From positions 1-64,000 of the forward strand of contig JAVKHY010000002.1 of NCBI GenBank assembly GCA_031459765.1: a stretch of DNA of 64,000 nt, given 5' to 3'. The DNA comes from Armatimonadota bacterium (GTDB lineage: Bacteria; Sysuimicrobiota; Sysuimicrobiia; Sysuimicrobiales; Kaftiobacteriaceae). Every line of letters starts with the position of its first letter. Position 1 is the first letter of the stretch. The notes beneath the pieces were generated by a model. The model was given only the letters and a program-made list of their open reading frames with translations, was not told the origin of the DNA and made no database searches. Positions 16,760 to 38,297 of the stretch are shown piece by piece. The position numbers and the translations under genes are program-made.

Positions 16760-16966
16760 CTAACCGGCGTCGTGACGGTCAGAGTCGGCGGGAGGCAGGC
16801 GTTCGGCTCCGGCCAGTTTGCCGGCCAGTTGTTGTGGGTCGTGGATCAGAACCGGGAGGTGCTGCGAGCAGATCCAGAACGTCCGCCCGTGGTAGTGGAC
16901 AGCCAGCAGCGGCACCGCATTGTCGTCACGGCCGCAGTGCACACAGCGCTCGGGGCTCCGGGTCAT
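16760..16966 (-). CDS. Small CxxC/CxxH putative zinc-binding protein
   Basis: The 68-residue product begins MTRSPERCVHCGRDDNAV and contains a second potential metal pair in FWICSQHLP. The Cys-x2-Cys and Cys-x2-His spacing suggests one zinc ribbon-like site. I do not recognise a named family. It is the last gene of the type II molybdoenzyme operon, 59 bases after the gamma subunit. The ATG at 16966 was preferred over a longer open frame that overlaps gamma. A role in cofactor handling or assembly is only inferred from position. Confidence 0.6.
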   Translation of the reverse strand: MTRSPERCVHCGRDDNAVPLLAVHYHGRTFWICSQHLPVLIHDPQQLAGKLAGAERLPPADSDRHDAG

Positions 16967-17025
16967 GCTCTGCCGCCCGCCCGGACCATCCTGGAGCGTC
17001 GCGCCCGGTCCACGGCGACCTCTTT

Positions 17026-17898
17026 CTACCGGCGCAACGGTGTCAATCGCAGGGGCCACCACATCAGCGTGATGTTCTTCTGACCGTTGCGATCCTCGTT
17101 CCCCCCGTCCCACACCGCGACGTTGAGGTGCGTGGTCTCCCCGGGCTGGAACTGCGCATCGGCTTCATCCGGCGTCCGCAGGGACCGGACCATGATCACC
17201 GTCCACCGGCCGGCCTTCCACCGGCCGACGGCCGCGACGTCCTGCCTGGGCTGCGTGGTAAGCGTCCCAAACCCCCACGCCACCAGGTCTTCAGCCGCGC
17301 TGGTGCGCGCCGTGGCGGATCGCAGGTTGCCGGCGGCGGCACCCGCGTTGAACCCCTGCCGGGCGCGCTCGGTCTTGGCCAGATGGACGTCATAGTAGTA
17401 GTCCACGGCCATCGCGGGATAGCTGCGACGGAGGTCGGCGGCGCGCGCCAGGTCCTCCTGCCAGGACGCCTTCCACTGCCAGATATTCACCGGATGCCGG
17501 GCATCGCCCATGAAGGGATTGGGCAGCGTCCCGGGCTGCACCGGAAACTGCAGCGCTACAGCGTCCGTGAACTCGCGCTGGCGCCGGTCGGCGGTATTCG
17601 CCGTCGCATCCGCCCAGGAAAGCTCGAGGAAGAGGGTCCTGCCGTCATGGAGGGCGCGGAGGCGGACCTCCTTCACCGTCCCGCCCCCGTGAGGGCGGAT
17701 GATGGTCTGCGGCATCATCGGGATCGTGCGGGCCGGGGCCCGGGTGAAGACCGCGGCGGCGCGGTCCACATCGAGGGGCACCTTCGCCGCGGTGAACAGG
17801 ACGTCGATGGGCGGCGGCTGAGGCTGGCCGGCGGCGGTGACCAGGTCCAACACGACCAGGAGGACACCCGCAACCACGGCCCCCGCGATCTGCCGCAT
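17026..17898 (-). CDS. Type II DMSO-reductase-family gamma subunit (heme-b protein, EbdC/DdhC-like)
   Basis: This is the periplasmic cytochrome-b subunit that takes electrons to or from the beta subunit's Fe-S chain. The 290-residue product has a Sec-type signal peptide (MRQIAGAVVAGVLLVVLDLVTAAG) and the ethylbenzene-dehydrogenase-type heme domain. Family hallmarks are the LFLELSWADAT strand, the PFMGDARHPVNIWQWKASW block and GRWKAGRWTVIMVRSL. The Met of PFMG and the Lys of GRWK are candidate axial heme ligands by analogy with the Met/Lys pair of ethylbenzene dehydrogenase; I have not aligned them. It follows the HExxH gene by 13 bases. Confidence 0.88.
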   Translation of the reverse strand: MRQIAGAVVAGVLLVVLDLVTAAGQPQPPPIDVLFTAAKVPLDVDRAAAVFTRAPARTIPMMPQTIIRPHGGGTVKEVRLRALHDGRTLFLELSWADATANTADRRQREFTDAVALQFPVQPGTLPNPFMGDARHPVNIWQWKASWQEDLARAADLRRSYPAMAVDYYYDVHLAKTERARQGFNAGAAAGNLRSATARTSAAEDLVAWGFGTLTTQPRQDVAAVGRWKAGRWTVIMVRSLRTPDEADAQFQPGETTHLNVAVWDGGNEDRNGQKNITLMWWPLRLTPLRR

Positions 17899-17911
17899 CC
17901 TGCTCCCTCCC

Positions 17912-18847
17912 TCACGAACCGCTCAAGACTCCCTGCAGCGAGACGGCATAGCCCTCCACGCAGCGCGCGCACGCCTTAAGCCGGGGGTGCCAGTCCGGAA
18001 AGTCGGTGCGGATCCGCGCCGCCACCGCCTCCTCGATCGTCGTCGCCCACTCGTACGTGGGAAACCGGCACAGCGGGCAGCGCCCTCCGGCAGGCGGCGG
18101 AGGATCACCCTCCTCGACCGCCACCCCGGCAAAGGCCGCGAGTGCGGCCCGGTCGGACGCTAGGCGCAGCAGCATCGGGTACGTCGGTCGATCGCCGTCC
18201 CAGAGCCGGGTGACAATGGCCCGGGCGGCCGGGGCGGGCATCCAGGCGAATATCTGCACACCAGCCTCTTCGTACTCCGCCCGAGTGCGCCAGGGGGAGT
18301 TTCCGGCCCGAACGGCGCGGCCGTCGACGCTGCAGTCCCAGAGAAAGCGGAACTGCTCTCCCACGGGCCGCCCTGCGCCGGCGGGGTCGGGCAGCCCTTC
18401 CCCGTAGCCAAAGGTCTCATCGAGCACGTCGACGATGTGGCCGAACTCGTGGCGGAGGAACCGCGTCAGGTCGGCCGGAGCCTCGAAGCGCGCGGGGCGC
18501 AGACGCACCCCGACGGTCCGTCGGTCCCTGCCGAGGTCGGCCCCCTCCTCTGTCCGGCTCCAGGCACGCGACACGATGATCTCGTCGACCTGCGGAGGGA
18601 GCGCGCCCGCCGCGTCCGTCACCGGCCGGCCGCCGCCCAGGATCTCGAAGAAGCGGGCGGACAGCAGCCGGAACGCCTGGCGGCGATCCTCCGGTCGGAC
18701 GTGCTGAACGTAGATGCGGTCGGCGGCGCGCCGGTACGGCTCGTAGAGTGCCGCGTCGCCGGCTTCCGCGCGCCGCCGCAGGAGCAGCTCGACCACCGCC
18801 TCCTGCAGGCCGGCCGTGTACCGGATGCGGGGAGCGGCATGGCTCAT
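17912..18847 (-). CDS. Putative HExxH metallopeptidase-like accessory protein with C-terminal zinc ribbon
   Basis: I do not recognise a named family for this 311-residue protein. It has an HEFGH motif at residues 133-137 followed by IVDVLDETFGYGEG, like the zinc site of gluzincin-type peptidases. A C-terminal treble-clef-like pair of knuckles has Cys257/Cys260 (CPLC) and Cys293/Cys296 (CARC). No signal peptide or membrane segment is visible, so it should be cytoplasmic. The start ATG overlaps the stop of the TorD-like chaperone gene (ATGA), and gamma follows 13 bases later. It is therefore an integral member of the molybdoenzyme operon. It may act in maturation or proofreading of an exported subunit; this is inference. 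Confidence 0.75.
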   Translation of the reverse strand: MSHAAPRIRYTAGLQEAVVELLLRRRAEAGDAALYEPYRRAADRIYVQHVRPEDRRQAFRLLSARFFEILGGGRPVTDAAGALPPQVDEIIVSRAWSRTEEGADLGRDRRTVGVRLRPARFEAPADLTRFLRHEFGHIVDVLDETFGYGEGLPDPAGAGRPVGEQFRFLWDCSVDGRAVRAGNSPWRTRAEYEEAGVQIFAWMPAPAARAIVTRLWDGDRPTYPMLLRLASDRAALAAFAGVAVEEGDPPPPAGGRCPLCRFPTYEWATTIEEAVAARIRTDFPDWHPRLKACARCVEGYAVSLQGVLSGS

Positions 18848-19605
18848 GGCGATGGCTCCAGGGGGCAGCGGTCGGCCCCGCACGGCGGCGTTGCCTCCCC
18901 GGGCTCCCCGAAGACTGGAAGCGCCGATTCGTCCTCTCCGTCGACGATGATGCCCAGCGCAGCGGCATCCGCTGTGATCACCGCCCGGGTGAGGTGCGCC
19001 AGCTCGCCGTAGAGGCCGTCATCCCTGGCGGTGACGAGGCGGGTGAAGGTGGGAACCCACCTGGCCACATGGTCCCGCAGGAAGGCCCGCCGGGCGTCCA
19101 CGAAGGGCCAGACCTTCTCGGCCTCTTCGTGGACCGAGGCATGGGCTTCCCGAAACGCCAGCACGTGCAGAAACTCAAGCTCCAGGCTCAGGTGGTCGAC
19201 GCGTTCACCTGCGCCGGCGGCCACTTCCAGACCGAAGGCCAGGTAGAACCCGGCGATATCCGCCAGCTGTTGCGCCTGCTGGAAGATGTGGCCGACCCCG
19301 TACTGCGTCTCGTGCAGCGGGCAGTCGCGGGAAATCTGGTGGCCGAAAAGTCGCCGGTAGGCGGCCTGCAGCCCGGCCGGCGCCGATGCCGTCAGCACCC
19401 CAACGACGCGCCGCGCCTGCTCCTGCGCCCGGACCCCGCCCATACGCTCCGCCGCCGCCGTCACCGCCTCCAGCACGGCCGGAGCGGTCCGCAGAGCGGC
19501 CAGCCCGTCCTCCGGCGGAGACCAGCCCAGTGAGAGGAACCGGTACAGCGTGCTGCGCGCCAGGGCGAGGGCGGGGTCGGGGATCTCGGTGACCGGGGGC
19601 GCCAT
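18844..19605 (-). CDS. TorD/DmsD/NarJ-family molybdoenzyme chaperone (delta subunit)
   Basis: These cytoplasmic chaperones bind the catalytic subunit, assist cofactor insertion and hold back Tat export until folding is complete. The 253-residue helical product has the family marker DHLSLELEFLHVLAF (about residues 137-151), an upstream CPLHETQYG segment, and a C-terminal cysteine pair in PPCGADRCPLEPSP. It sits ten bases after the beta subunit gene and overlaps the next gene by four bases, matching the alpha-beta-gamma-delta sets of ethylbenzene dehydrogenase, selenate reductase and DMS dehydrogenase operons. Confidence 0.9.
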   Translation of the reverse strand: MAPPVTEIPDPALALARSTLYRFLSLGWSPPEDGLAALRTAPAVLEAVTAAAERMGGVRAQEQARRVVGVLTASAPAGLQAAYRRLFGHQISRDCPLHETQYGVGHIFQQAQQLADIAGFYLAFGLEVAAGAGERVDHLSLELEFLHVLAFREAHASVHEEAEKVWPFVDARRAFLRDHVARWVPTFTRLVTARDDGLYGELAHLTRAVITADAAALGIIVDGEDESALPVFGEPGEATPPCGADRCPLEPSP

Positions 19606-19615
19606 GGCGGGCTCC

Positions 19616-20861
<1,246 letters not shown>

Positions 20862-20869
<8 letters not shown>

Positions 20870-21149
20870 CGCCGCTCTCCTCCCGGATCCAGCATCCCCT
20901 CCACCGGGCCGCTGTCTCGGTGACGAGCCGCCGCACGCAGTCCTCGCCCAGCTGTCGATGGATGACGTGGAGGGTCCGGTAGAAGGGGTTGCGGAACAGG
21001 GCCAGCAGCCGGTCCGCCTCCCATCCGGCGCGCACGTATTCCTCAACCAGACAGCGGGCCATCTCCTCCAGCGCCCCCGCGCCGGCAACCACCCCCACCC
21101 CGACCAGAACCATGGGGTCGTCCGGCTCGTAGGGCTTCGCCCTGCTCAC
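20862..21149 (-). CDS. Conserved-looking 95-residue protein between alpha and beta subunit genes
   Basis: I do not recognise this protein. The GTG start at 21149 overlaps the alpha stop (GTGA), and its end overlaps the beta start by eight bases, so it is translationally coupled on both sides. It reads MSRAKPYEPDDPMVLVGVG at the start. Then come an acidic/hydrophobic helical part (ALEEMARCLVEEYVRAG) and a basic C-terminal half (LFRNPFYRTLHVIHRQLG, then ARWRGCWI). There is no signal or membrane segment. Length and position suggest a cytoplasmic assembly factor for the enzyme; this is inference. Confidence 0.7.
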
Positions 21150-24100
21150 CGCGTTCTGACCCGGACCAGCGCCCCGGCCAGGTAGCGCTTCATGAACTCG
21201 TTTTCCCGGCCGGGAGTGAAGCCCGTGCGGGCCGGCTCCCACAGCCCCTTCCCCCCGATGCCGCCGTCCTCGGCCTTGGTGATTTTCACCAGGGTCTCCT
21301 TGGGCACGGTGTTCACAGCGTGGTTGTCCGCTTCCCCGCCGAAGAGGAAGGCCACCGTCGCCTTCGCCTTGTGAAACAGCGTGTCGGTCTGATGCATCGG
21401 CATGAGCCAGTCGCGGGTCAGCGACTGCTGGCCGCCGTAGCGCAGGTTGGCCTGATAGCCGGTGTCCTCGGAGCGGGCCAGGCCGTCGGGACGGGTTTCG
21501 TGGGCCCGCACGGATTTCTCCGTGGCGATGAACGGCGCGTGTTTCATCATCAGCACGTTGTAGGGGTAGGCCGGATTGTATTTCACCCGCACCATGCAAC
21601 GGGCCACCCGGTAGAAGGGATCGCCGGGCTTCCATCCGATGTACGGGCGGTCGGCGGCGTAGGCGTCCACGTACACGTAATCGCCGTCGTTGATGCCGAG
21701 ATCCCTGGCCGCTTGGGGGTTGATGTGCATCTGGTGCTCGCCGACCCCCGGGGCCCGCCGGTCCAGCCGGTACGGATCGCCGAAGTTGCTGTCCCAGATC
21801 AGGTTCCAGTCCACAGCGCTCCAGCTCGAGTGCACCCGGTGACGGGTCTTGGGCGTGAGGAAGTAGAACCGGTAGCCCTGCGCCCACAGCGGGTTGGTCG
21901 TCCGCTTCACCTCCCGCCACGGGAGCTTCACATTGCGGACGGTGCGCTGGTCCCAGTGCAGCGCGTCCTGCGGGATGCCGTAGTCCTCGGGCCGCACCAG
22001 CGGGTTGCTGGTGACGATGACGTTGGGCAGGTACGGGGTGGCCTCCGGGCCTTCCCGGTGCACGATGAAGTTCTCACCGTACTCGATCGCCTCGGGCAGG
22101 TCGCAGTAACTGTTCAACCGGCCGGTGTCGGTGTAGAAGGGCTCGCTGTCATGAACCTGCTCGTAGAACGGCACGCGCGGATAGGTCCGGAAGAGCATCA
22201 GGGCCGCGCCGGGTTCGCCGTAGGCGCCCGCGAGGATCTCCTCCACCCGGTACCCGACCGTGGAGGTGGAGCTGTCCAGCAGCCGCTGGATGTAGACCTC
22301 GGGCCGCCGCTCCAGCAGGAACTTGAAGTACTCCCTGAACCGCCGGTCCTTGGTGAGGTCGGCCAGCTTGGCCGCCACCTCGGCGATGATCAGCCCGTCG
22401 TCCTTGGTGTCGTAGAGCGGGGTGATCCCGCCCTTCCAGATCTGCAGGAAGGGGTTGCTGCAGGACGCCGTGAGCTCGTAGGTCTCGAACTCAGCCCAGG
22501 AGTTCGCGGGGAGGATGACGTCCGCGTACTCGGCGCTGGCGGTCATTTCGATGTCCTGGTTGATGATCAGCTCCACGTTGGGGTTGACGTTCTTGATCAC
22601 GCCGTAGGCCCACTTGGCGTTGTTGATCAGGTTGACGTTGTTGTACCAGATGACCTTGGTCGGGGTCGGCATGTGGGTCTGGCCGGTAAAGACCTTGCGA
22701 CCGGTCTTGGGGGTGGTCACGATCAGCGGCATGTCGCCGTGGTCCCAGTACGCCGGTTCCTCATCCTTAACATACTTCTTCACCTTAATGTCCCGGCCGG
22801 AGACGTGAGGGTCGACCGCCGGATGGAACGGATCTTCAAAAAACCACCCCAGGATGCCCGGGCCGGTCCAGGGGGAGCCCTGGAAGAGGGCGGCTTTGTA
22901 GTTCCCTGCCCAGGTATGGCAGCCACCGCCGGGGATGCCGATATTCCCGGTGAGCATGAGGGGCAGGTAGAAGGCGCGGTTGGCCAGGGTGGCATGGAAC
23001 CAGTGGTTGATCCCTTCGCCGATGTGGATGGCCGCCGGTTTGATCGTGGCGATGTCCCGGGCCAGGCGCGTAATCATCGCCTTGGGCACGTGGGTGATCT
23101 CGGCCACGGTGTCCAGGTCGTAGTCGCGCAGGTGGTCGCGATAGGCCTCCCAGATCGTGAGGCACTCCACTTCGGCGCCGTCCACGAGTTTCACCCTGCC
23201 CCGCCACCGCAGCTCCGGCTCCAGTCCGGCCCGGGCGAGACGGTCGCCCACGTCGTCCCGGGTAAGGGGCTTCAGCTGCCGGCTCTTCCGGTCGAAGATC
23301 ACGAAATCTCCGAGTTTCCGGTACTGGTCCGGGGTGAGGTTCTGGCGGGTGAAGCTGGGGCCAGCAGGATCGAGCCCGGGCCTGTAGTGGGGAAAAACTT
23401 CCGCGGCCCGCAGCCGCTGCAGCGTGTCGGTCCTGATGAGCAGGGGGAAGTCGGTAAACCGCGTCACGAAGGCCGCATCGTACCAGCGGCGGTCCATCAT
23501 CAGCCGGGTGATGCCCAAGAACAGCGCCGCATCGGTCTGGGGCCGGATCGGCATCCAGTAGTCGGCCTTCACCGCGGGCGGACCGTACTCGGGGGTGATG
23601 ACGACGATGCGGGCCCCGCGTTCCATGAGCTCATTGAAGAAGTGGCTCTCCGGCATCTTGTTTTCGATCAGGTTCTTGCCGACCTGAATGTGCAGCCGGG
23701 CATGCCGCAGTTCATTGAAGTCCACGTCGGACGCCTGCAGGCCGTGCACAAAGGGCTGCCCCGGCGCCTGGTCGCCGTGCCAGGTGTAGTTGCTCCAGAT
23801 GCGCGCCCCCAGGGCCTGATCGGAGGGCACCCGGCGCACGTGGACATCCAGCAGGGCCATGGCGTTGGCCATGCGGTAGAGGCCGTACTTGCCGATCACC
23901 CCGGTCAGCCCCATCCCGCCGCGGAACTTGAAGGTGCGCACGCCCGCCCCGTGCATCGCCTCCACCATCTCCGGTGCATAGCCCTGGGCCAGCAGACGCC
24001 TCGCACCCGCCTCGCCGCTATAGCGTCGGGCGACGGCGAGGAAGGCCTGCGCGATGTAGGTGTAGGCCTGCTCCCAGCTGATCCGCTCGAAGGTATCCAG

Positions 24101-24646
24101 GCCGCGGCGGTCAAAGCGATACCGGCTCTTCACCTCGGGCGTCAGCTCGGGGAAGCCGGCGTCGGCCCACTGCTTCCACCCCAGGCGGACCATGGGGTAC
24201 TTCAGGCGGTACGGTCCATAGACCCGGCGGTGGAAGGTGTACCCTTTCAGGCACCCCCGGGGGTTCCAGTGGGGGGTGGCCCGATTCCCGTACAGGTCCC
24301 TGTAGCGATGGACGTCATAGTTCTGCTCGATGCGCATGATCACGCCGTTGCGCGCATAGGCCCGCAGCCGGCAGTGGTGGGTGTCGTTGGGCGAGCAGAC
24401 GAAGGTGAAGGTGCGGTCGTAGCGGTACTGGTCGCGGTAGACCTTTTCCCAGTCCCTGGCCGGATAGAAACCCAGCGGGTTCTCGATCGTGGCCAGGGGT
24501 CTCAGCAGCCGCAGCGGGAGCGCCTGAGCCAGGAGGAGCCCGCCGACACTCAGGCCGGCCGTCTCGAGAAACTCCCGGCGGGTCAGCCGGAGGGCATCGG
24601 GAAGCTCGGTCTCCCCAGCCGTCGGACCGTCCAGGCCGTCGCTCAC
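21146..24646 (-). CDS. Type II DMSO-reductase-family molybdopterin catalytic (alpha) subunit, Tat-exported; nitrite oxidoreductase/ethylbenzene dehydrogenase-like
   Basis: This is a 1166-residue molybdo-bis-PGD oxidoreductase. A twin-arginine signal (LTRREFLETAGLSVGG, residues 21-36) predicts periplasmic action. The N-terminal cluster (FS0) ligands read C84-x3-D88-x3-C92 and then C132, so an Asp sits where most relatives have Cys. The likely molybdenum ligand is Asp292 in YTWHGDQAPGQP, matching the WYCDLPP region of NarG. The CSPNDTHHC pattern recalls periplasmic nitrite oxidoreductase and its nitrate-reductase-like relatives, but hydrocarbon hydroxylases, perchlorate, chlorate and selenate reductases share the fold. 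The substrate is not decidable by eye. It overlaps the regulator gene upstream (ATGA) and the 95-residue gene downstream. Confidence 0.92.
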   Translation of the reverse strand: MSDGLDGPTAGETELPDALRLTRREFLETAGLSVGGLLLAQALPLRLLRPLATIENPLGFYPARDWEKVYRDQYRYDRTFTFVCSPNDTHHCRLRAYARNGVIMRIEQNYDVHRYRDLYGNRATPHWNPRGCLKGYTFHRRVYGPYRLKYPMVRLGWKQWADAGFPELTPEVKSRYRFDRRGLDTFERISWEQAYTYIAQAFLAVARRYSGEAGARRLLAQGYAPEMVEAMHGAGVRTFKFRGGMGLTGVIGKYGLYRMANAMALLDVHVRRVPSDQALGARIWSNYTWHGDQAPGQPFVHGLQASDVDFNELRHARLHIQVGKNLIENKMPESHFFNELMERGARIVVITPEYGPPAVKADYWMPIRPQTDAALFLGITRLMMDRRWYDAAFVTRFTDFPLLIRTDTLQRLRAAEVFPHYRPGLDPAGPSFTRQNLTPDQYRKLGDFVIFDRKSRQLKPLTRDDVGDRLARAGLEPELRWRGRVKLVDGAEVECLTIWEAYRDHLRDYDLDTVAEITHVPKAMITRLARDIATIKPAAIHIGEGINHWFHATLANRAFYLPLMLTGNIGIPGGGCHTWAGNYKAALFQGSPWTGPGILGWFFEDPFHPAVDPHVSGRDIKVKKYVKDEEPAYWDHGDMPLIVTTPKTGRKVFTGQTHMPTPTKVIWYNNVNLINNAKWAYGVIKNVNPNVELIINQDIEMTASAEYADVILPANSWAEFETYELTASCSNPFLQIWKGGITPLYDTKDDGLIIAEVAAKLADLTKDRRFREYFKFLLERRPEVYIQRLLDSSTSTVGYRVEEILAGAYGEPGAALMLFRTYPRVPFYEQVHDSEPFYTDTGRLNSYCDLPEAIEYGENFIVHREGPEATPYLPNVIVTSNPLVRPEDYGIPQDALHWDQRTVRNVKLPWREVKRTTNPLWAQGYRFYFLTPKTRHRVHSSWSAVDWNLIWDSNFGDPYRLDRRAPGVGEHQMHINPQAARDLGINDGDYVYVDAYAADRPYIGWKPGDPFYRVARCMVRVKYNPAYPYNVLMMKHAPFIATEKSVRAHETRPDGLARSEDTGYQANLRYGGQQSLTRDWLMPMHQTDTLFHKAKATVAFLFGGEADNHAVNTVPKETLVKITKAEDGGIGGKGLWEPARTGFTPGRENEFMKRYLAGALVRVRTR

Positions 24647-25407
24647 GCCGCCGCCCTCCCTTCTCTGCCCTGTCCGTCTTCCTGACCCGTTGCTGCAGAG
24701 GGAACCCCGGATGGACGGCGTTCCGGAGCGGCCAGCACAAACACACAGCGGGGATCGCCCCGCAGGACGGACTCCCGCTGCACCACCTCCGTGCCCACCA
24801 GCAGGGCCAGCAGGCCCCGGGCGATGGCGCAGATCTCGCGGAAATCCCGAGCAAGGTCAGCAAGCCGGCAGCCGCCAAGGCTCACCTCGTACCCTCCATT
24901 CATCCGCCGCAGTTCGGCCGGCGGCAAGGCGTCGAACAAGACACCAAGCGCCGCTCTGATCCGCACCTCGGGGTCCGGAATCTGCGCAACCTCCGGGTGC
25001 TCCGCCGCCAGGCGCTCGGCCGCCGCCTGAATGGTCCGCCGCATCTGGTCCGGCCCCTGCGTCCTGATCCCCCTGAGGAGAGAGGCCAGCAGGGTCGCGT
25101 AGGTCTCAGGGGTCGGCGGCTCAGGGACCGGCGGCCTCTGCGGCGTGGCAGCGTAGACGATGGGGGGGCGACCGGGCCGGCCCCTGATCACCTGTCTGGA
25201 GATGAGACCGTCCCGCTCCAGGAGCATCAGGTGCTGACGCAGGGCAGACGGTGACAGGCCCGTGGCGGCTACGAGGTCCTTCAGGGTGGAGGGCCCGGAA
25301 GCGGTCAGGTAGCGGAGCATCTCGGTGCGGGCGGGGTAGGCGCGAGAGATCCTGGAACCCGGCTCCCGCTCGGGGGAGGAACCAGCGGCCGGTTTCAACG
25401 GTTTCAA
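24643..25407 (-). CDS. Winged-helix transcriptional regulator with C-terminal cysteine motif (COG2345/SufR-like)
   Basis: The 254-residue protein has an N-terminal ArsR-like winged helix (about 28-88: LKDLVAATGLSPSALRQHL, then a wing rich in Arg/Gly/Pro). The C-terminal sensor domain holds Cys180, Cys193 and Cys221, spaced C-x12-C-x27-C. This resembles the Fe-S-binding region of SufR-type regulators with one Cys missing, so redox, oxygen or Fe-S sensing is plausible. A TTG start at 25407 is supported by GGAGGAGG just upstream. It is the first gene of the type II molybdoenzyme operon and overlaps alpha by four bases, so it is probably an autogenous regulator of that operon. Confidence 0.82.
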   Translation of the reverse strand: MKPLKPAAGSSPEREPGSRISRAYPARTEMLRYLTASGPSTLKDLVAATGLSPSALRQHLMLLERDGLISRQVIRGRPGRPPIVYAATPQRPPVPEPPTPETYATLLASLLRGIRTQGPDQMRRTIQAAAERLAAEHPEVAQIPDPEVRIRAALGVLFDALPPAELRRMNGGYEVSLGGCRLADLARDFREICAIARGLLALLVGTEVVQRESVLRGDPRCVFVLAAPERRPSGVPSAATGQEDGQGREGRAAA

Positions 25408-25593
25408 CGCCTCCTCCGATTACTCTGCACGGTAGCGGGAGATCGCGTGGGCGACAATCGGGCGGGGAGAGTATTTTTCAGCCCGACCGGCCAGCCCCCT
25501 ACGCCCGGAGATATCAACTACATCGCATTGGACCTGCACAACAACACCCGATGTCGCGGCGGTGCCGATGGCCTGTGTCAGTTGCAGGCAAGG

Positions 25594-25670
25594 TGGCAGG
25601 GGCGGAGGGATTCGAACCCCCAACATCCGGTTTTGGAGACCGGCGCTCTGCCCGTTAGAGCTACGCCCCT
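25594..25670 (-). tRNA. tRNA-Trp (CCA), inner copy
   Basis: The minus strand folds into a full cloverleaf. It has acceptor AGGGGCG/CGCCCCT, D-stem GCTC/GAGC, anticodon arm CCGGT-CTCCAAA-ACCGG with anticodon CCA, a T-loop with GGTTCGAATCC and an encoded CCA end. It differs from the copy at 33201-33277 by a single base in the D-loop. It lies between the two molybdoenzyme operons. Confidence 0.96.
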
Positions 25671-25683
25671 GGGAACGGCTGGA

Positions 25684-25772
25684 CGGCGAAGGCCACGGCC
25701 GCCGCGGTGCCCTCCAGGAACTCATCGGGAGGCAGAGGTAGCAAGCCGCGGAGGTCGTTCTAGCGCGAGGTG
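25684..25772 (-). pseudogene. Decayed fragment of folP (dihydropteroate synthase)
   Basis: This 89-base stretch aligns without gaps to positions 37244-37332 of the intact folP gene in this window, with about 14 mismatches (roughly 84% identity). In the folP frame the fragment reads S-R-stop-N-D, then a segment ending [16 protein letters not shown], where the intact gene has [16 protein letters not shown]. The in-frame TAG and small size show it is dead. It lies 13 bases upstream of the inner tRNA-Trp and 11 bases from the stop of the multi-cluster Fe-S gene. Confidence 0.8.
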
Positions 25773-25783
25773 CCACCAGTCCC

Positions 25784-27382
25784 TCATATCGGAGACATCG
25801 AGGCGGCCCGGCAGTCCTGGCAGTACCGGGCGATGACATCCCGCGCCCTGGCATGCTGATCGCCCAGCAGGACCCCGATCCGCTGCAGCATCGTTTCGGG
25901 AGCGATCGGAGCGCCGCACGCCGCGCACCGACGCTGGCGGCTCCGCCGCACCTCGGTCCGCCCGGCGGCGAGGCGACCGAGATCCGCCACCTGCCCCAGG
26001 TGTAGCACGTCAGGCTCTGGGCAGGCCGGCAGGCACTGCCCGCAGGCGACGCACCTGGCGGGATCGACGATCAAAATCTCGTCTTCGTCACGCTGCAGTG
26101 CGAGCGCCCCCGTGGGGCAGACGGCGGCACAGGCGCCGCAGAGGGTACACCCGTCGCGGACGTCGAGAACCCCGAACGGGGAGAAAGGGTGGGACACCGC
26201 AACGGTCTCCGCATCATAGGCGCGGGCCAGGTGCTGGAGCAGCTGCGCGGCAGCGCCCGCGGCGAAGGCGCCGGGCAACGCCGGATCGCCCGGGCCTGGA
26301 CCGGGCAGGGGCTGCCGGAGAACCCGGGCGAGGGCTGCCGGCTCCGCGGGAAGCGTTAGGATCCGCGGCTCCGACTCCCCCATGCGCGCCAGCAGCTGCC
26401 GGCAGAAGGCCACCCGCCCCTCGATCCGCCCCGGCCCACCGGTCCGGCAGCCGTTCGGACAGGGCACAACTCCCACCGCCGCCGCGCCGCGGGCCAGAAA
26501 GGCGAGAAGCCATCGGGCAGGAACCATCTCGGCGCACGGGACTTCCAAGGGCAGCCAGGATGCCGGGATCGGGTGAATCCCTCCGGCCAGGGCAGGTAGA
26601 GCAGGACTCCCGGCGCAGCTCAAGAGGATCGCCCGGGGCTGAAGCGGGCTGATCAACGGGTCCAGGAGCGCCCGTGTCCGCGCGTCCATCTCCGCGGCCG
26701 TAAATCCGGGAAACTCCATGGCATCGTGCGGACAGGCGGTGACGCATACGGCACAGCTCGTGCAGCGGAGTTTGAGCAGCCGAATCTCGCCGCCTGTGGC
26801 TTCCAGGGCCTGGTGGGGGCAGGCCAGCACACACAGCGCACACCCGGCGTCCGCCCGGCACCGGTCTGCCCGGGCCGCCGGCACCACCTGGTATTCGAGC
26901 CACGAGAGGGCAAACAGTGACCTGCGGCTGACGGCCGGGGGCAGGACGGGGCGAAGATGCTGCGGCCGGCTGCCGGAGAAGGCCTCGACTCGCGCCGCCG
27001 CCGCGGCCGTCAGGATCACGGCCCTCTCGACCGCCAGAGAGGCGGGGACCGCCCGGGCAAGAAGGCCCAGAGCAACAATCTCGACGCCCAGGGGATCGAG
27101 CCCGGCCCGGCGCATCGCCGCCTGGAGCGGCGCCAGCGACGTCATCGGGCGGCACAGGCCCAGCACCGCTGCCGACCCTCTACCCGTGAGGTGACGGGCA
27201 GTCCGCTCGGTGCGCGTGCACAGGTCGGGAACCACCTGGACGGAGGCGGAAGGCATGTACGCCGCGAGCCGTCGGGCCACGGCCTGCGGGTCGATCCCGG
27301 CAGGGGAGGACGCCAGATCTCCGCACAACAGCACCCACGTGCCCCCGGGAACGCCGGCATGAGGGACCGGACCCGCCGGCAT
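25784..27382 (-). CDS. Multi-cluster Fe-S protein with MvhD-like centre and C-terminal zinc ribbon
   Basis: This 532-residue cytoplasmic-looking protein contains two ferredoxin-like modules. The first has CRADAGCALCVLACP and CTSCAVCVTACP (175-218). The second has CTLCGACAAVCP and CVACGQCLPACP (412-454). Between them a segment with LSCAGSPAL, VPCAEMVPARWLL and VVPCPNGC resembles the MvhD/HdrA-associated delta subunit family. The C-terminus has a zinc ribbon-like pair, CAAC (486-489) and CQDC (521-524). The N-terminal 150 residues are not recognised. The start overlaps the TorD-like stop by one base. It may link the membrane-bound molybdoenzyme to a cytoplasmic electron pool or serve in assembly; both are inference. 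Confidence 0.8.
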   Translation of the reverse strand: MPAGPVPHAGVPGGTWVLLCGDLASSPAGIDPQAVARRLAAYMPSASVQVVPDLCTRTERTARHLTGRGSAAVLGLCRPMTSLAPLQAAMRRAGLDPLGVEIVALGLLARAVPASLAVERAVILTAAAAARVEAFSGSRPQHLRPVLPPAVSRRSLFALSWLEYQVVPAARADRCRADAGCALCVLACPHQALEATGGEIRLLKLRCTSCAVCVTACPHDAMEFPGFTAAEMDARTRALLDPLISPLQPRAILLSCAGSPALPALAGGIHPIPASWLPLEVPCAEMVPARWLLAFLARGAAAVGVVPCPNGCRTGGPGRIEGRVAFCRQLLARMGESEPRILTLPAEPAALARVLRQPLPGPGPGDPALPGAFAAGAAAQLLQHLARAYDAETVAVSHPFSPFGVLDVRDGCTLCGACAAVCPTGALALQRDEDEILIVDPARCVACGQCLPACPEPDVLHLGQVADLGRLAAGRTEVRRSRQRRCAACGAPIAPETMLQRIGVLLGDQHARARDVIARYCQDCRAASMSPI

Positions 27383-28092
27383 CACCGATCCCTCGCGCGG
27401 GCAGCCTCTCCGCCGGAGCCGACGGCAATCAGCCGGGACAGCAGGTCGATGAGATCCTGATCGTGGTGGACGAAGCCGTCCGCCGCAGCCGTCGCCTGCG
27501 CGTAGAACCCGCTCTGAGCAGCCGCACCGACCGCCCGGGCGAGGGAGGGAAACCACCGGCCGAGATGCCGGCTGAGGAATTGCCGCTCCCGGGACAGGAT
27601 CGACACCCCCGCCTCTGACGAAACCTGAAGCCAGGCCGCAGCCTCCAGGCCGCAGAGCGCGGACATGAACTCCAGCTCCACGGCCGCATGGTCGGGCGGC
27701 TCCCCCGATGGTCCCGCGGCGGCAAGCCCCTGCGCCGCATACTCCCGCTCGACGGCCAGGACGACCGCTGCCGCCAGTCTGGGGTCTTCCACGAGGAAGG
27801 CGGACTCGGTCGGCGCGGGACCGCCAGCACCGTCCAGGCCGAACAGGCGAACGTACTCCGTCTGCAGCCCTTCGCCCTGGTGGTGCGGCAGACGCCGCAG
27901 GGTGTCCAGGAACGCCCACCACGGGAGACCCACAGCCAGCCCGGACAGCAGTGCGCGCTGCCGCAACAGCCCGGAGGCCATCGTCTGGAGAGAGCGCACC
28001 CTCCGCGGCTCGGGATACAGGAACACCTGGGACAGCAACCGATAGGCCCCGGCCCGGAACCGGGCCAGGCGGGCGAGTGTCTGTTCAGGCAC
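27382..28092 (-). CDS. TorD-family molybdoenzyme chaperone
   Basis: The 236-residue helical protein begins at a GTG at 28092 (reads MPEQTLARLARFRAGAY), eight bases after the upstream membrane-protein gene. The family marker appears as DHAAVELEFMSALCGLEAA (about residues 136-154), and a second helix has FLSRHLGRWFPSLARAV. It should bind the Tat signal of the catalytic subunit at 30415-33087 and assist cofactor insertion. Its stop overlaps the next start (TGATG). Confidence 0.87.
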   Translation of the reverse strand: MPEQTLARLARFRAGAYRLLSQVFLYPEPRRVRSLQTMASGLLRQRALLSGLAVGLPWWAFLDTLRRLPHHQGEGLQTEYVRLFGLDGAGGPAPTESAFLVEDPRLAAAVVLAVEREYAAQGLAAAGPSGEPPDHAAVELEFMSALCGLEAAAWLQVSSEAGVSILSRERQFLSRHLGRWFPSLARAVGAAAQSGFYAQATAAADGFVHHDQDLIDLLSRLIAVGSGGEAARARDR

Positions 28093-28100
28093 GGTGTCGC

Positions 28101-28373
28101 CTACCGCGGCCGCAGTTCGCGTCTGCCGGAGGGGCCCTGGCGACTCGCCGGGTCGGGCAGGAGTTCGTACACCGCGGCCGCGGTGAACATCAGCATGATG
28201 CCTGCGATGAAGGCCACGGGCAGGTAGGGGATCGGCTGTCCCAGGGCCAGCGCAAGACCACTGCGCACCGGCAGGCCGGGAATCCTCAGCGGCAGGGCCA
28301 GGCTGAAGCTCGCCGCCGCGAGCGCGAATCCCGCCATGATGATCAGCCTCGTCACCGCCGTGCGCGCGGACAT
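28101..28373 (-). CDS. Small two-helix membrane protein of the Psr/Nrf-like operon
   Basis: The 90-residue product begins MSARTAVTRLIIMAGFALAA and has two hydrophobic segments (about 8-28 and 50-70) and a basic tail ending RRELRPR. Its ATG overlaps the nrfD stop by one base (TGATG). I do not recognise a family. Position suggests an auxiliary subunit of the membrane anchor. Confidence 0.72.
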   Translation of the reverse strand: MSARTAVTRLIIMAGFALAAASFSLALPLRIPGLPVRSGLALALGQPIPYLPVAFIAGIMLMFTAAAVYELLPDPASRQGPSGRRELRPR

Positions 28374-29662
28374 CAACCATCGCCTCCGTCTTCCTCTGGC
28401 AACTCGATAATCGGAAAGACCTTGACGAACAGGACGTAGAGGAGGATGCCCAGAGATACCAGGCCCCCGATGATGCTGTATTCCACCCACGTCGGGCTGT
28501 AGGTGCCCGGCGGGTATGGCAACAGCGCCCCATGCGTCTGCGAGGGCACGACGATCAGCAGGCGTTTGCCCACCGCGGCCACGTTCACGAGGATCCCCGA
28601 CAGGACGATGACGGGAATGCTGGTGTGGCCGGTGAGGAACTGCCGCAGCAGCAGGTAGAAGGCGAGGAGCAGAGCGGCGACCGAGGCCCAGTAGATCCGG
28701 GCGTACCGGCCGAAGAAGATCGCCTGGGTGACACGGCTCTCGTGCAACGGCGCGGCGTAGGTGGCGGTCAGCCAGTCCACGAGCATGAAATAAATGTAGG
28801 CCGCGGTTAGCACCATCAGAAAATTGCCGAGCCAGCGGAACACGTCGGGGGGGAGGCGATCCTGCGCCGCCAGCGTGCGCCTCACCACCGCGGCGATGAC
28901 GATCAACAAGCCGACCCCGGAGACGCCGGCCAGGATGACGAACGCCGGCGCCTGCAGCGCGCTGAACCAGCCCGGCCGACCGACCTGCAGACCGAAGACG
29001 AAGCCCAGTGTGGAGTGGGCGATGACCAGCAAGGGGAGGATGGCCAGGGACAGCCAGAAGCTGACCCGCTGGTGACGCTCCCGCTCGGCCGGCGTGTCCC
29101 GGTACCCCGACGCCCACAGGCGGTAGAACCATTGCAGCCGTCCCGGTCTCCGGGCGCAGAGGGCGGCGTCGCGGCGGCCGTCCAGGAAAAAGTACACCAG
29201 GCTGGCAAACAGATAACCCGCAATGACCATGGTGAAGGTCCCGAAGAACGGCGATTGGGGACGGGCGTATTTGAGCAGGTGAAAAATGCCGCGCAGCGGC
29301 TGCCCCAGGTCCGGCAGGACGCTGAAGGCGGCCAGGATCAGCGAGATGATGGTCAGCACCTCCGCCATGCGGGACACCGCCCGCAGGTGCCGCAGGTTCA
29401 GCAACCGCACCAGCGCTGCCGTGGTGATCCCGGCGAAGCTCACCCCGACGAAGTAGACGTCGAAGGCGATGTACAGCCCCCACGAAGACCCGCCCATCGT
29501 GCCGATGTCGCGCAGGCCCGTGACCACCAGTCCCTCGGTCAGCTGGGTGTACAGCGCGTTGACGCCCTGGGCGAGGACACCGAGCAGCACCGCTATGGCG
29601 AGCCAAACGCGCGCCGACATCTGCCCGACGCCGTAGGGAATCCGATCCATCCGCAGGACCAC
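28373..29662 (-). CDS. nrfD: NrfD/PsrC-family integral membrane subunit
   Basis: NrfD/PsrC proteins are quinone-interacting membrane anchors of Fe-S molybdoenzymes. The 429-residue protein has about ten hydrophobic segments. Family-typical parts are the TMGGSSWGLYIAFDVYFVG region, FSVLPDLGQPLRG and the RVSFWLSLAILPLLVIAHST segment. It lacks heme-binding motifs. The gene lies three bases after the four-cluster ferredoxin gene. Together with the catalytic subunit it suggests quinone reduction or oxidation coupled to a periplasmic substrate. Confidence 0.9.
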   Translation of the reverse strand: MVLRMDRIPYGVGQMSARVWLAIAVLLGVLAQGVNALYTQLTEGLVVTGLRDIGTMGGSSWGLYIAFDVYFVGVSFAGITTAALVRLLNLRHLRAVSRMAEVLTIISLILAAFSVLPDLGQPLRGIFHLLKYARPQSPFFGTFTMVIAGYLFASLVYFFLDGRRDAALCARRPGRLQWFYRLWASGYRDTPAERERHQRVSFWLSLAILPLLVIAHSTLGFVFGLQVGRPGWFSALQAPAFVILAGVSGVGLLIVIAAVVRRTLAAQDRLPPDVFRWLGNFLMVLTAAYIYFMLVDWLTATYAAPLHESRVTQAIFFGRYARIYWASVAALLLAFYLLLRQFLTGHTSIPVIVLSGILVNVAAVGKRLLIVVPSQTHGALLPYPPGTYSPTWVEYSIIGGLVSLGILLYVLFVKVFPIIELPEEDGGDG

Positions 29663-29665
29663 GGG

Positions 29666-30415
29666 CTACACCCTCGCCTTCACCGTCTCGATCTGCCGGA
29701 CCTCGTGCCCCGGCGCCCTGCCGCCCAGGTAGTACACGCGGGGCTCTGTGCCGGCATACTCCAGCAGTCGAAAATGCGCCCGGCGCCTGAGCAGCTGGGA
29801 AACCTTGCTCGCGGGATCGTCCAGATCGCCAAAATGCAGGGCGAACAGCGGGCAGTTGGCCACGCAGGCCGGGAGCAGGCCCTTCTCCACCCGGTGCACA
29901 CAGAAGGTGCACTTCTCGATGACCCCCTTGAGGTGGCCGCCGCCAGCGGTGCGTCGGCGCTCTGGGCCCTGGGGGAGGTCCAGGTCCGGATTCTTGTACG
30001 GCGGAACCGCCCCGCCGGTCACTCCGGCCAGGGCTTCCACGGCCTCCCGGTCCATCCAGTCGAGGTACTGGTTCCGCTCCGGCCGCTTCCAGTTGAAGTA
30101 GTTGACGCCGTAGGGACAGGCCACTTCGCAGTACCGACAGCCGATGCACCGGTCGAAGTCGGTGGCCACCAGGCCGTCCGGCCGCTTGTAGCGGGCGCCC
30201 ACCGGGCAGACCTTGACGCACGGGGCGTTGTCGCAGTGCATGCACGGCCGCGGCATGAACCACACCCGCGTATTGGGATACTCGCCTTCCTCAAACCGGA
30301 AGACGTACATCCAGAAGTTGGCCTGCGGGGTGTTGTTCTCCACTTTGCAGGCCTCCATGCACGCCCGACAGCCGGTGCAGCGGTCCAGGTCGATGACCAT
30401 GGCATAGCGCGCCAT
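29666..30415 (-). CDS. Four-cluster ferredoxin-type electron-transfer subunit (PsrB/NrfC/DmsB-like)
   Basis: The 249-residue subunit contains four Cys groups: CTGCRACMEACKVENN (13-28), CMHCDNAPCVKVCP, CIGCRYCEVACPYG and CTFCVHRVEKG paired with CVANCP. These predict four [4Fe-4S] clusters between the molybdenum subunit and NrfD. There is no signal peptide, so it is probably co-exported with the Tat-bearing subunit. The start overlaps the catalytic subunit stop by one base (TGATG). Confidence 0.93.
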   Translation of the reverse strand: MARYAMVIDLDRCTGCRACMEACKVENNTPQANFWMYVFRFEEGEYPNTRVWFMPRPCMHCDNAPCVKVCPVGARYKRPDGLVATDFDRCIGCRYCEVACPYGVNYFNWKRPERNQYLDWMDREAVEALAGVTGGAVPPYKNPDLDLPQGPERRRTAGGGHLKGVIEKCTFCVHRVEKGLLPACVANCPLFALHFGDLDDPASKVSQLLRRRAHFRLLEYAGTEPRVYYLGGRAPGHEVRQIETVKARV

Positions 30416-33087
30416 CAGGAGGACTCCTTGAACACCCGGACCTTCACGTGGAAGGACTGGTCGGCGGTGTTAGCCACGTAGCCCTCGCCGGTGAAGAAGA
30501 GGGCGTTTGGGGTCGGCCCCTGCCCCTTCGCCCACGGGTGACTCCACAGGCCGTAGTGGTGGGGCAGGCCGACGGTGTCGGGGCGGATGGCCTCGGTGAA
30601 GTGGACGCGCACCCTGACCTTCCGGGTCTCGCCGGTGAGGGCGTTGTGCGACTCCACCCACACCTCCTCCCCGTCGCGGATGCCGCGCTCCCGGGCCGTC
30701 CTGGGATTGATGTCCAGGCGCTGGCGGGGAGCCAGTTCGGCCAGCAGCGGGATGAAGCTGCTGCGGGATTGCTTGAACTCGATCATCTTGTAGCTGATGA
30801 GGTAGAGATCATAGCGCTCCGGGGACGCATCCATCGTCGGCCGCCGCCAGGTGGGCAGGGGCGTGTAGTCCCGCCAGTAGACCTCGGCCGCGCCCCTGGC
30901 CCGCATCGTCTCCCGGTAGCGGAGCAATGCCTCTCCGTACAACCGGTGGCGCACGCCCCCGAAGGGCGGATCGGTCGCGTACCCGTAGGCGGCCGAGGGC
31001 GGAATCGGCCCCTTCACCTTGACGCCGTGCTTCTCGAAGTAAGCGACCCCCGCGACAATTCCCTCCGACTTCGCCCACCGATCGAAGATCTCGCGCACGG
31101 ACGGCTTGCGGTCCAGGGGCAGCCGATACGGCTCCTTCAGCGCAAGCGCTTCGTTCAGCCGGTCCAGGTAGCCCCCCCGGCCGTAGAGAATGCCCGCCTT
31201 CTCGCACAGGTCGAGGTAGATGTCGATGTCTCCCCGGGACTGGAACAACGGCTTCATGGGCGGCAGGCGGAGCGCCACGCCGTCCAGGTATTGATCGCTG
31301 GCCTTGCTGGGTCCCTCGTACTTCTCGATGGTGGCCGCCGGCAGGACGACGTCGGCGAAGTAATCCGCGGTCTCCGACAGCCAGGGGTCAATGGCGGCAA
31401 CGAACTTGAAGCGTTTGTAGGCTTCGATGAGGTCCGGCTGGGAGGCGAAGGCCACCAGGGGATTGCTCATATGCACCAACAGGACCTCCGGCCGGTCCTG
31501 AACCCCGTAGCGCTCGGGGTGCTGCAGCACCCGCGCCACCACCGATGAGTTGTTGCTGTTGATGGGGAAGTAGATGCTGTCCTTCAGGTAGATGTTGTAC
31601 GGCGGATCCTTGATCTCGATGCGGTCGAGTTTCTCGAAGTTCTCGTGGATCGTCCACCTCCCGACGTCCGTACGCTGCCCGCCGGCGGCGCCCACGGCGC
31701 CCAGGAGCATCATCACGGTCAGCATGGCCCGGACCGCCTGGAAGCCCAGTTCCTGCTGCGCCATGTGGTAGGCCATGATGGCCACCGGACGGTACGGCAG
31801 CGTGACGCCGTCGAGAACGATGCGGCTGCCGATCCGCGCCTGCTCTCCCAGCTCCTGCGCCACGCGGGTGATGGACTCCGCCGGCAGCCCGCACACGCCG
31901 GCCGCCCACTCCGGCGTGTATCGGGCCACGTGGTCCTTGAAAACCTGGAAGGCGGGCCGGACCGTCACGCCCCCGACGCGGAATTCGCCCTCCAGCGCGG
32001 GCTCGACGCCGGCGGCGTCGTAGGGACGGACCGCCCCCCGCGCGCTGTCCCAGATCTGCTCCTTGCCGTCGATGCGGAGGAAGAAGCCGTCGGGCCCGAC
32101 AAGAAAGGGGGCGTTGGTGTAGCGGAGCAGGTAGTCGCGGTCGATGGTGCCTTGAGCGATCAATCGGTGGCACAGGGCCAGCGCCAGGGCCAGGTCTGTC
32201 CCCGGGCGGATGGGCAGCCACTCATCGACGAAGGGCCCGGCTCCCCGCAGCCGGGGGTCGACGACCACGACCTTCAGCCCCCGCTCCTTCGCCGCCGCCA
32301 GCTGCTGGGGCCAGGTGATCCAGCACAGCTGGTTGCCGCCGGCGTTGGTGATATTCCAGCCCCAGGCCAGCAGATACCGCGTGTGCCGGAAGTCCGGGTG
32401 CAGCACGCCCGACGTCCCGATGGTGTACTCGCTGGCCCGGTACCCCGCGTCGGAGCAAAAGGCGCCGTGGTGAAGTTTGGTCGCCCCGCTGGCCTTGACG
32501 AAGGCTTCGTCGTAGAACGCCTTGCCCTTGCTGCGGCCCTTCTGCCAGACCAGGAGGCGAGGATCCCTGGCCCGCGCTTCTTTGATCTTGTCCGCCACCA
32601 GCGCCAGCGCCTCGTCCCACGAGGCCCGGCGCCACTGCCCCGGAACCCCCTTGGCGTTGGTCCGGACCAGCGGCGTCTTCACGCGATGGGGATCGTAGAT
32701 GGCCATGATCTGGGCCACGCCCTTGGGACACAGCGTGCCGGCGTTGAGCGGGTTACCGGGGTGACCCTCCAGCTTCACCAGCCGACCGTTGATGCGTCGG
32801 GCCAGAAGGCCGCAGTCCTGCTTGCCGATCCAGCAGGTGGTGGGGACCCACTCCTCCTCCCCGGAAGTCGCTGGTGCGGCGCCGCTTCGAACAAGAGTCT
32901 GGAGACCGCCAGGGAGGAACCGGGAGGCGGCCAGGATCCCCCCGACGGCCGCCGAGCCCTTAACAAACGTGCGTCGGGTGACCCTCACCGCTCCGCCACA
33001 GGGGGATTCGAGCTCGGCTGGGGAAATCGGCAGCGGCCTCCCCGCTCTCCTTTCGAAGGGGTCACAGGAGACACTCTGGGTAAGCAT
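30415..33087 (-). CDS. Molybdopterin oxidoreductase catalytic subunit, Tat-exported (Psr/thiosulfate-reductase-like)
   Basis: This is an 890-residue DMSO-reductase-superfamily enzyme. A twin-arginine signal (VTRRTFVKGSAAVGG, residues 36-50) predicts export. The N-terminal cluster site reads C85-W-I-G88-K-Q-D-C92 and then C120. The usual second Cys of C-x2-C-x3-C is a Gly, so one ligand is missing. The likely molybdenum ligand is Cys211 in HGAFCSDAGY, as in Cys-type enzymes such as polysulfide, thiosulfate and arsenate reductases. The substrate is unknown. The frame opens at an ATG at 33087 without a visible ribosome-binding site; a GTG at 32988 just before the Tat motif is a possible alternative start. 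It is the first gene after tRNA-Trp. Confidence 0.88.
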   Translation of the reverse strand: MLTQSVSCDPFERRAGRPLPISPAELESPCGGAVRVTRRTFVKGSAAVGGILAASRFLPGGLQTLVRSGAAPATSGEEEWVPTTCWIGKQDCGLLARRINGRLVKLEGHPGNPLNAGTLCPKGVAQIMAIYDPHRVKTPLVRTNAKGVPGQWRRASWDEALALVADKIKEARARDPRLLVWQKGRSKGKAFYDEAFVKASGATKLHHGAFCSDAGYRASEYTIGTSGVLHPDFRHTRYLLAWGWNITNAGGNQLCWITWPQQLAAAKERGLKVVVVDPRLRGAGPFVDEWLPIRPGTDLALALALCHRLIAQGTIDRDYLLRYTNAPFLVGPDGFFLRIDGKEQIWDSARGAVRPYDAAGVEPALEGEFRVGGVTVRPAFQVFKDHVARYTPEWAAGVCGLPAESITRVAQELGEQARIGSRIVLDGVTLPYRPVAIMAYHMAQQELGFQAVRAMLTVMMLLGAVGAAGGQRTDVGRWTIHENFEKLDRIEIKDPPYNIYLKDSIYFPINSNNSSVVARVLQHPERYGVQDRPEVLLVHMSNPLVAFASQPDLIEAYKRFKFVAAIDPWLSETADYFADVVLPAATIEKYEGPSKASDQYLDGVALRLPPMKPLFQSRGDIDIYLDLCEKAGILYGRGGYLDRLNEALALKEPYRLPLDRKPSVREIFDRWAKSEGIVAGVAYFEKHGVKVKGPIPPSAAYGYATDPPFGGVRHRLYGEALLRYRETMRARGAAEVYWRDYTPLPTWRRPTMDASPERYDLYLISYKMIEFKQSRSSFIPLLAELAPRQRLDINPRTARERGIRDGEEVWVESHNALTGETRKVRVRVHFTEAIRPDTVGLPHHYGLWSHPWAKGQGPTPNALFFTGEGYVANTADQSFHVKVRVFKESS

Positions 33088-33200
33088 ATAGCACGAAGGA
33101 ACTAGCCGCGCATCGGGCGGCGACCTGATGCCTCACCGATTGGTGCGTTCCCTGGGGGGTCCTGCCGGCCGGAGGAGGAGAGAAGGCCTGGATCTTTTCC

Positions 33201-33277
33201 TGGCAGGGGCGGAGGGATTCGAACCCCCAACATCCGGTTTTGGAGACCGGCGCTCTGCCAGTTAGAGCTACGCCCCT
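33201..33277 (-). tRNA. tRNA-Trp (CCA), outer copy
   Basis: It has the same cloverleaf as the inner copy: acceptor AGGGGCG/CGCCCCT, anticodon loop CTCCAAA, encoded CCA. The single difference is U instead of G in the D-loop (TAACTGGCA against TAACGGGCA). It lies 78 bases after rpmG, the place where many bacteria have tRNA-Trp followed directly by secE. Confidence 0.97.
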
Positions 33278-33511: not shown

Positions 33512-34732
<1,221 letters not shown>

Positions 34733-36556: not shown

Positions 36557-37123
36557 CTAGCGCTTTCCCTCCACGATCGAGAAGAACTCGGCCCGCGTGC
36601 GTGCATCCTCGCGGAAGAGGCCGCGCGTCGCGGAGGTGACGACGAGGCTACCCGGCTTTCTCACCCCGCGCATCGTCATGCAGGTATGGGTGGCTTCGAT
36701 GACGACCGCGGCCCCGCGGGCCTTCAACCCTCCCTCGCACAGGAAGTCCGCGATCTGCGAGGTGAGCCGTTCCTGCACCTGGGGCCGCCGGGCCAGGATC
36801 TCCACGAGGCGCGCCACCTTGCTCACGCCCAGGAGGCGCCCCTGGGGGATGTAGCCGACGTGCGCCAGGCCGTGGAAGGGCAGGAAGTGATGCTCGCAGA
36901 GGGAGTCAAAGGGAATGTCTTTGACCACGACCATCTCGTGATGGTTTTCGTCGTCGAACCCGACCTCGAGCAACTCGCCGGGATCCTGCCCCAGTCCGCT
37001 GAACAACTCCCCGTACATCTCGGCGATGCGCCGGGGGGTATCCCGCAGCCCCTCGCGGCCGGGATCCTCGCCGATGGCGACGATGATATCCCGCACCGCC
37101 CGTTCAATGACCGATTTGTCCAT
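36557..37123 (-). CDS. folE: GTP cyclohydrolase I
   Basis: FolE converts GTP to dihydroneopterin triphosphate, the first step of folate synthesis. The 188-residue product has standard length. The zinc ligands are visible in [12 protein letters not shown] (Cys and His) and in [14 protein letters not shown] (second Cys). The [20 protein letters not shown] segment is typical. The gene overlaps folP by 20 bases, so the two are translationally linked. Confidence 0.97.
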
Positions 37124-38297
37124 GCTGACCAGCCTCCTCGGGAGTCGGGACCCTGCGGTGACCGAGGAAGAACTCCATCATCCGGGCCACGCGCACCATG
37201 ACCTGCACATCGTGCACCCGGAGCATGTTGGCGCCCTGGGCCGCGGCGAACGCCACGGCCGCCGCGGTGCCCTCCAGCAGCTCGTCGGGATGCAGTCGCA
37301 GCAGGTCGCGGATGTAGTCCTTGCGCGAGGTGGCGACGAAGATGGGACAGCCCAGGCTGCGCAGTTCGGGCAGCCGCCGCATCAGCTCCAGATCGCGGGC
37401 CGGATGCTTGCCGAAGTTCAGCCCGGGATCGACCAGCAGGCGGTCCCGGGGCACCCCGCGGGCGACGAGGTCGTCGATCCGCCGCGCCAGGAACGCCGCC
37501 ACCCAGTCCATCATCGACGGCACGGGCACATCTTCGTAGTGCTGCTTGGGGCGGCCGTGGAGGTGCATGATCACCAGCCCCGCCCCGCCCGCCCTGACGA
37601 CCTCCGCCATCCGCGGGTCGTTCGCCCCGCTGATGTCGTTGATCAGGACCGCCCCGGCGTCGATCGCGGCCCGGGCCACCTCGGCCTTGTAGGTGTCCAC
37701 GGCCACCGGCAGCGGGAAGCGTCGGGTCAGTTCCCGCACCAGGGGGGCGACGCGGCCGATCTCCTCGGCCGCCGGCAACGGGACGCCCTGCTGCGCCGAC
37801 TCTCCGCCGACCTCGATGAGATCGGCGCCCTGGCGCACGATCTCCTCCGCCCGCCGCAGCGCCGCATCCATCCCGAAATCCCGGCCGCGGTCAAAGAAGG
37901 AGTCCGGGGTGTTGTTCAGGATGCCGGCGATATAGAGGCGCGCGGCGAAGTCGAAGGTGAAGGAGCCGAGCGTCATCCTGGGCGGCGGAGTCCCGATCCT
38001 GGCCAGGACCTCGCGCAGGGCGGCCCCCACCGCCCCCCCGGCGCGAGCGGCCAGGCGATCGAGTTGACTGAGCGTCCCGGCCAGGACGAGCGCCCACTGG
38101 CCGTCGTCGGCGACCCCGGCCGGCCCCACCGGCGACGACCATCCGGACTCGGCGCGGAAGGATGCCGCGGCGGCGCGGAGCGCATCCTCCGGACCGATCA
38201 GGCGGATCTTCTGAAAGGTCGTCTCGCGGGGCTCACCCGGCCTCGCCAGCGGGGCGAGCGCCCAGGCCCGGACGGCACGGTGGATCACGCCGGTCAC
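37104..38297 (-). CDS. folP: Dihydropteroate synthase, long divergent form
   Basis: FolP joins p-aminobenzoate to the pterin pyrophosphate in folate synthesis. The 397-residue protein has an extra N-terminal region of about 120 residues before the TIM barrel. Core motifs are [14 protein letters not shown] (loop 1, about 125-138), [10 protein letters not shown] (162-171, where the usual form is GGEST-R-P-G), [36 protein letters not shown] and the terminal LRVHDV. The changed loop 2 residues are in the pABA/sulfonamide region. The GTG at 38297 has no ribosome-binding site. A TATGAT -10 box (38304-38309) lies six bases before it, suggesting a leaderless transcript. Confidence 0.9.

Follow-up and report, generated by a model that had tools for sequence, protein, structure and literature searches.

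A decayed piece of folP stands 13 bp from a second tRNA-Trp gene on this chromosome, and we consider it probable that an intrachromosomal duplication, later trimmed to the tRNA gene, left it there as a dead passenger. The argument draws on the following features of the window, the whole stretch of 64,000 nucleotides that was analysed.

25684-25772, minus strand: decayed folP copy, 89 bp of the folP 3′ region with an in-frame TAG
37244-37332, minus strand: matching segment in the intact folP (within ORF 37104-38297), the likely source
25671-25683, minus strand: junction of 13 bp, running from the folP piece to the tRNA 5′ end
25594-25670, minus strand: inner (duplicate) tRNA-Trp, anticodon CCA (ARAGORN; Rfam RF00005, 64.2 bits)
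33201-33277, minus strand: native tRNA-Trp; as in relatives it follows tuf and rpmG, and it has a promoter-like site at 33333-33305
25784-33087, minus strand: molybdoenzyme operon 1, between the two tRNA-Trp genes (NCBIfam and homologues in other genomes), including a TorD-type chaperone gene
30415-33087, minus strand: operon 1 catalytic subunit (NCBIfam)
29666-30415, minus strand: operon 1 Fe-S subunit
28373-29662, minus strand: operon 1 membrane-subunit-like ORF
25784-27922, minus strand: operon 1 ferredoxin-like ORF, its last gene
17026-25407, minus strand: regulator (24643-25407) with the DMSO-reductase-type-II-like operon 2, in the interval from the inner tRNA-Trp to secE-nusG

The ORF at 37104-38297 was identified as dihydropteroate synthase, folP (TIGR01496, E 1e-76); the segment matched by the piece lies near its 3′ end and includes an 11-residue protein motif common to the folP genes of the family. 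Nucleotide alignment of the two segments, which make up repeat family D7, bore out what the first-pass annotation had read there: an 89-base match without gaps and in the same orientation, with 14 mismatches (84% identity) and the folP reading frame interrupted by an in-frame TAG. The similarity is beyond chance, with an alignment score of 108 against a best of 32 in 500 shuffles, and an E value of 1.8e-21 when BLAST was run across the whole 2.8-Mb genome. No ungapped extension of the alignment was found in either direction. The piece does lie beside the inner tRNA-Trp, as had been claimed, starting 13 bp upstream of it; at its other flank 11 bp lead up to the stop codon of the last operon 1 gene, and the piece fills most of the space between that stop and the tRNA 5′ end. 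A search of the genome for folP found only the intact gene and this piece. Five relatives in the family carry a second folP-like gene (L054, L057-L060), with about 45-47% identity at the protein level; as a source it was set aside, the identity of the piece to it being only 0.49-0.58.

On the minus strand the window runs folP, folE, ORF 35493, a group of tRNA genes, tuf, rpmG, native tRNA-Trp, operon 1, the folP piece and inner tRNA-Trp, followed by the regulator, operon 2, secE, nusG and rplK and then on to rpoB and rpoC (rpmG, secE, rpoB and rpoC were named by reading sequence and position). With the intact folP upstream and the native tRNA-Trp downstream on one strand, the two are 3,966 bp apart, against 13 bp at the scar, where order and strand are the same. 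Because this native order is matched, the piece and the inner tRNA-Trp can be read as a colinear copy with about 3.95 kb missing. The copy is colinear with its source and both are on the minus strand, as tandem duplication with loss would have it. The earlier description of the piece as a scar of duplication or recombination is supported. Calling it far from folP was misleading, given where the native tRNA-Trp lies, and the special donor that had been proposed, with folP near tRNA-Trp, is not needed: folP already precedes tRNA-Trp on this chromosome, and nothing foreign has to be invoked. Relatives retain folP-folE-tRNAs-tuf as one block and tRNA-Trp-nusG, with a single tRNA-Trp, as another on other contigs; their contigs often break in or near tuf. 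The matches in 42 other genomes of the order showed neither the junction of folP with tRNA-Trp, which the earlier reading had proposed to look for in relatives, nor any copy or intermediate form. Two further observations concern this neighbourhood. Positions 1-230 and 34503-34732, the latter inside tuf, are 99% identical over 230 bp and presumably represent two tuf genes, and folE of genome G008 (L046:1021-2586) matches in two parts, codons 1-76 and 76-188, with about 1 kb between them, in the manner of an insertion.

The piece drifts without coding constraint: in addition to the TAG, its mismatches to its own folP are spread 6/3/5 over codon positions 1, 2 and 3, as against 1/1/13 when the own folP is compared with its counterpart in the congener G002. 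At third positions, the piece departs from its own folP at 5 of 30 sites and the own gene from the G002 gene at 13 of 30 (p = 0.047); for positions 1 and 2 together the counts are 9 of 59 and 2 of 59, respectively (p = 0.053), although for a piece of 89 sites p values near 0.05 are weak. With this loss of constraint and its significant similarity to an intact gene of the same genome, it qualifies as a pseudogene piece. The mismatches are unevenly placed: the 34 bp nearest the tRNA have 1, and the remaining 55 have 13 (p = 0.014).

No other sampled folP is as close to the piece as its own, and the best topology of the likelihood tree makes the piece and its own folP sisters. Topology tests rejected a source in G005 (AU p = 0.034), nearly rejected one in G003 (AU p = 0.056), and gave AU p values of 0.49 for grouping with the G002 folP and 0.18 for a position basal to the genus, all from 89 sites and with fragmentary sister genomes, G001 having no folP match and G002 only the last part of the gene, within which its contig ends. 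Because third positions differ less between the piece and its own folP than between the own and G002 genes, the piece most likely branched from the own folP line once G002 had diverged, and has drifted since then. The own lineage is thus the most likely source on this comparison, and a congeneric one is possible.

The inner and native tRNA-Trp genes differ at 1 of 77 bases, in the D-loop, where the native base is common to all five family relatives examined; both score well (64.2 and 63.3 bits). This single change contrasts with the 14 in 89 of the folP piece (p = 0.0009), and about 12 would be expected of a tRNA changing at the pace seen at codon positions 1 and 2 of the piece. The inner copy has probably been retained by selection or by gene conversion with the native copy; that it is younger than the piece is less likely. 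An assembly misjoin at the tRNA repeats also appears less likely, because the two copies are non-identical.

Under the history that we favour, the stretch from inside folP through folE, the tRNA genes, tuf and rpmG to tRNA-Trp would have been duplicated with its orientation kept, a tandem duplication adjoining the native tRNA-Trp being the simplest form. The duplicated length would be about 4.1 kb, rising to about 11.5 kb had operon 1 been present by then. About 3.95 kb of redundant sequence from the middle of the copy would then have been deleted, leaving 89 bp of folP beside a second tRNA-Trp. Selection or gene conversion would have held the tRNA nearly constant, and the folP piece would have decayed. 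Operon 1 would have entered downstream of the native tRNA-Trp, before or after the duplication. We infer the tandem mechanism, the order of events and the placing of operon 1 before or after them. By eye, a CAGGG microhomology between folP and the tRNA 5′ end is a possibility.

Several observations sit uneasily with this history. The intermediate is one that we infer, and no other remnant of the duplicated block (folE, tuf or rpmG) was found near the inner tRNA, in 25408-25593 or 25671-25783; since neither intermediates nor further remnants were found, tandem duplication with loss is the likeliest mechanism rather than a proven one. The 13-bp junction, tried as the native tRNA leader and as folP with small indels, is a weak fit to each and seems convincing as neither. 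The uneven decay along the piece is not predicted. If the gene order of G017 is ancestral, an extra deletion or insertion is needed: in that genome operon 1, the regulator and operon 2 are contiguous with no tRNA between them, and they lie elsewhere in the genome.

The two operons are not bound to one another. The unit of regulator and operon 2 also occurs in G038 and G017, in G038 without operon 1, and operon 1 occurs in G005 without an adjoining operon 2; a single ancestral cassette was therefore rejected, joined though the two are in G017. A 28-bp block at 25449-25476 (AAATACTCTCCCCGCCCGATTG...), upstream of the regulator, is conserved in that position at the regulator homologues of G017 (L159) and G038 (L183) and is probably an operator or part of a promoter. 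Most proteins of both molybdoenzyme operons (17026-33087) are rich in Trp, up to 5.4%; the housekeeping proteins of the window have about 0.5-0.7%.

The gap that receives these operons is variable in the relatives. From tRNA-Trp to nusG, with secE inside, it is nearly empty in G002, G004 and G009, at about 0.4-0.9 kb. G003 has a cation-ATPase gene there together with genes for a peptide transporter, G005 a diguanylate cyclase gene, and G017 genes with HEAT, HD and M78 domains; in the window the stretch between tRNA-Trp and secE (16900-33200) is occupied by the two molybdoenzyme operons. The cargo proteins tested in the relatives included no member of an integrase family. The tRNA-Trp to secE gap thus looks like a recurrent insertion place without a visible integrase; a literature search for a tRNA-Trp/secE hotspot found nothing. 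Comparison of the flanks of both tRNAs with the relatives' tRNA-Trp-secE gaps and with the G017 spacer did no better than shuffles, which leaves neither downstream flank identifiable as ancestral.

The position of operon 1, exactly between both tRNA-Trp genes, suggests another origin for the scar, which we regard as possible if rather unlikely. Operon 1 may have come on DNA (a circle recombining at tRNA-Trp, for example) from a relative whose folP had been rearranged beforehand so that its end lay beside tRNA-Trp, and a single crossover at the tRNA would then have left two tRNA copies around the operon. Mobility is suggested by the catalytic subunit, which is 83% identical to that of G017, from another family, and 80% to that of G005, from the same family, and the placements of the piece with the G002 folP or basal to the genus are compatible with the tree tests. 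Such an import would, however, require a folP-tRNA-Trp junction elsewhere, and none was seen in the matches from the 42 genomes of the order, none in exact form in viral contigs and none at 80 loci of related first operons, all of which are without tRNA-Trp; the own folP is also the nearest of those sampled. A similarity search of the spacer against plasmids gave matches to only about one-fifth to one-quarter of the query, at the tRNA. That the scar records the arrival of operon 1, as the first-pass annotation had suggested, is possible.

A promoter-like site was found by pattern match for the native tRNA-Trp (TCGTCA-17-TATAGT) and none directly upstream of the inner gene, which would consequently depend on operon 1 transcription. 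The inner tRNA might then be read as the tail of the operon 1 transcript and kept for Trp-rich molybdoenzymes, tying its supply to a respiratory operon. The catalytic subunits of the two operons contain 2.25% and 2.49% Trp, against about 0.5% in RpoB, RpoC and EF-Tu. The lack of a tRNA-Trp beside any of the 80 related operon 1 loci counts against this, and we think it improbable. Still harder to sustain is site-specific integration, with operon 1 as an integrative element, tRNA-Trp as its attachment site and the inner tRNA as the displaced target copy. Both ends are flanked by tRNA-Trp, forming a 77-bp direct repeat with one difference as in an island, and the gap downstream of tRNA-Trp has differing cargo in relatives. 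Yet 25784-33087 is filled by operon 1 genes and leaves no room for an integrase, the relatives' tested cargo is likewise devoid of one, the duplication takes in all 77 bp of the tRNA rather than only the 3′ portion, and a piece of folP does not belong in an attachment site. Finally, chance similarity, or a functional element (leader, terminator or antisense RNA) common to folP and tRNA-Trp, can virtually be dismissed: GC-rich sequence, a folP motif conserved at the protein level and the almost unaltered 34 bp nearest the tRNA speak for it, but the E value and shuffles rule out chance, in G002, G005 and G010 the best hits for this part of the query fall on the folP genes, Rfam gives nothing but the two tRNAs, no promoter or terminator pattern was seen, and the segment is absent beside tRNA-Trp in the other species sampled.

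The closest known process to the duplication and trimming that we favour would be tRNA gene birth by tandem duplication. Large tandem duplications adding tRNA copies were observed in laboratory evolution of Pseudomonas fluorescens SBW25, and the authors foresaw their remodelling to smaller fragments (PMC7661048). There too, a within-chromosome duplication raises tRNA gene copy number, junctions can cut off promoters and trimming was proposed, whereas the event here is old and has left a remnant with no intermediate preserved. Tandem duplication-random loss in animal mitochondria (e.g. PMC4860592, PMC5745709) is similar in its duplicated block, loss of redundant genes and pseudogene remnants, often involving tRNA genes, but here the setting is a bacterial chromosome, one gene piece and one tRNA are left, and gene order is otherwise unaltered. 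tRNA-borne genomic islands likewise place extra genes next to a tRNA gene with repeated tRNA sequence; here, in contrast, there is no integrase, the complete tRNA is duplicated and a housekeeping gene piece lies at the junction.

For the molybdoenzyme operons, this history means that a special donor is no longer needed. The tRNA-Trp-secE gap, inside the tuf-nusG-ribosomal gene cluster, is flagged as a site that gathers unrelated cargo in this bacterial order. The piece itself may be a natural fossil of a process known from laboratory evolution, in which a duplication is trimmed to an extra tRNA gene and a small scar.
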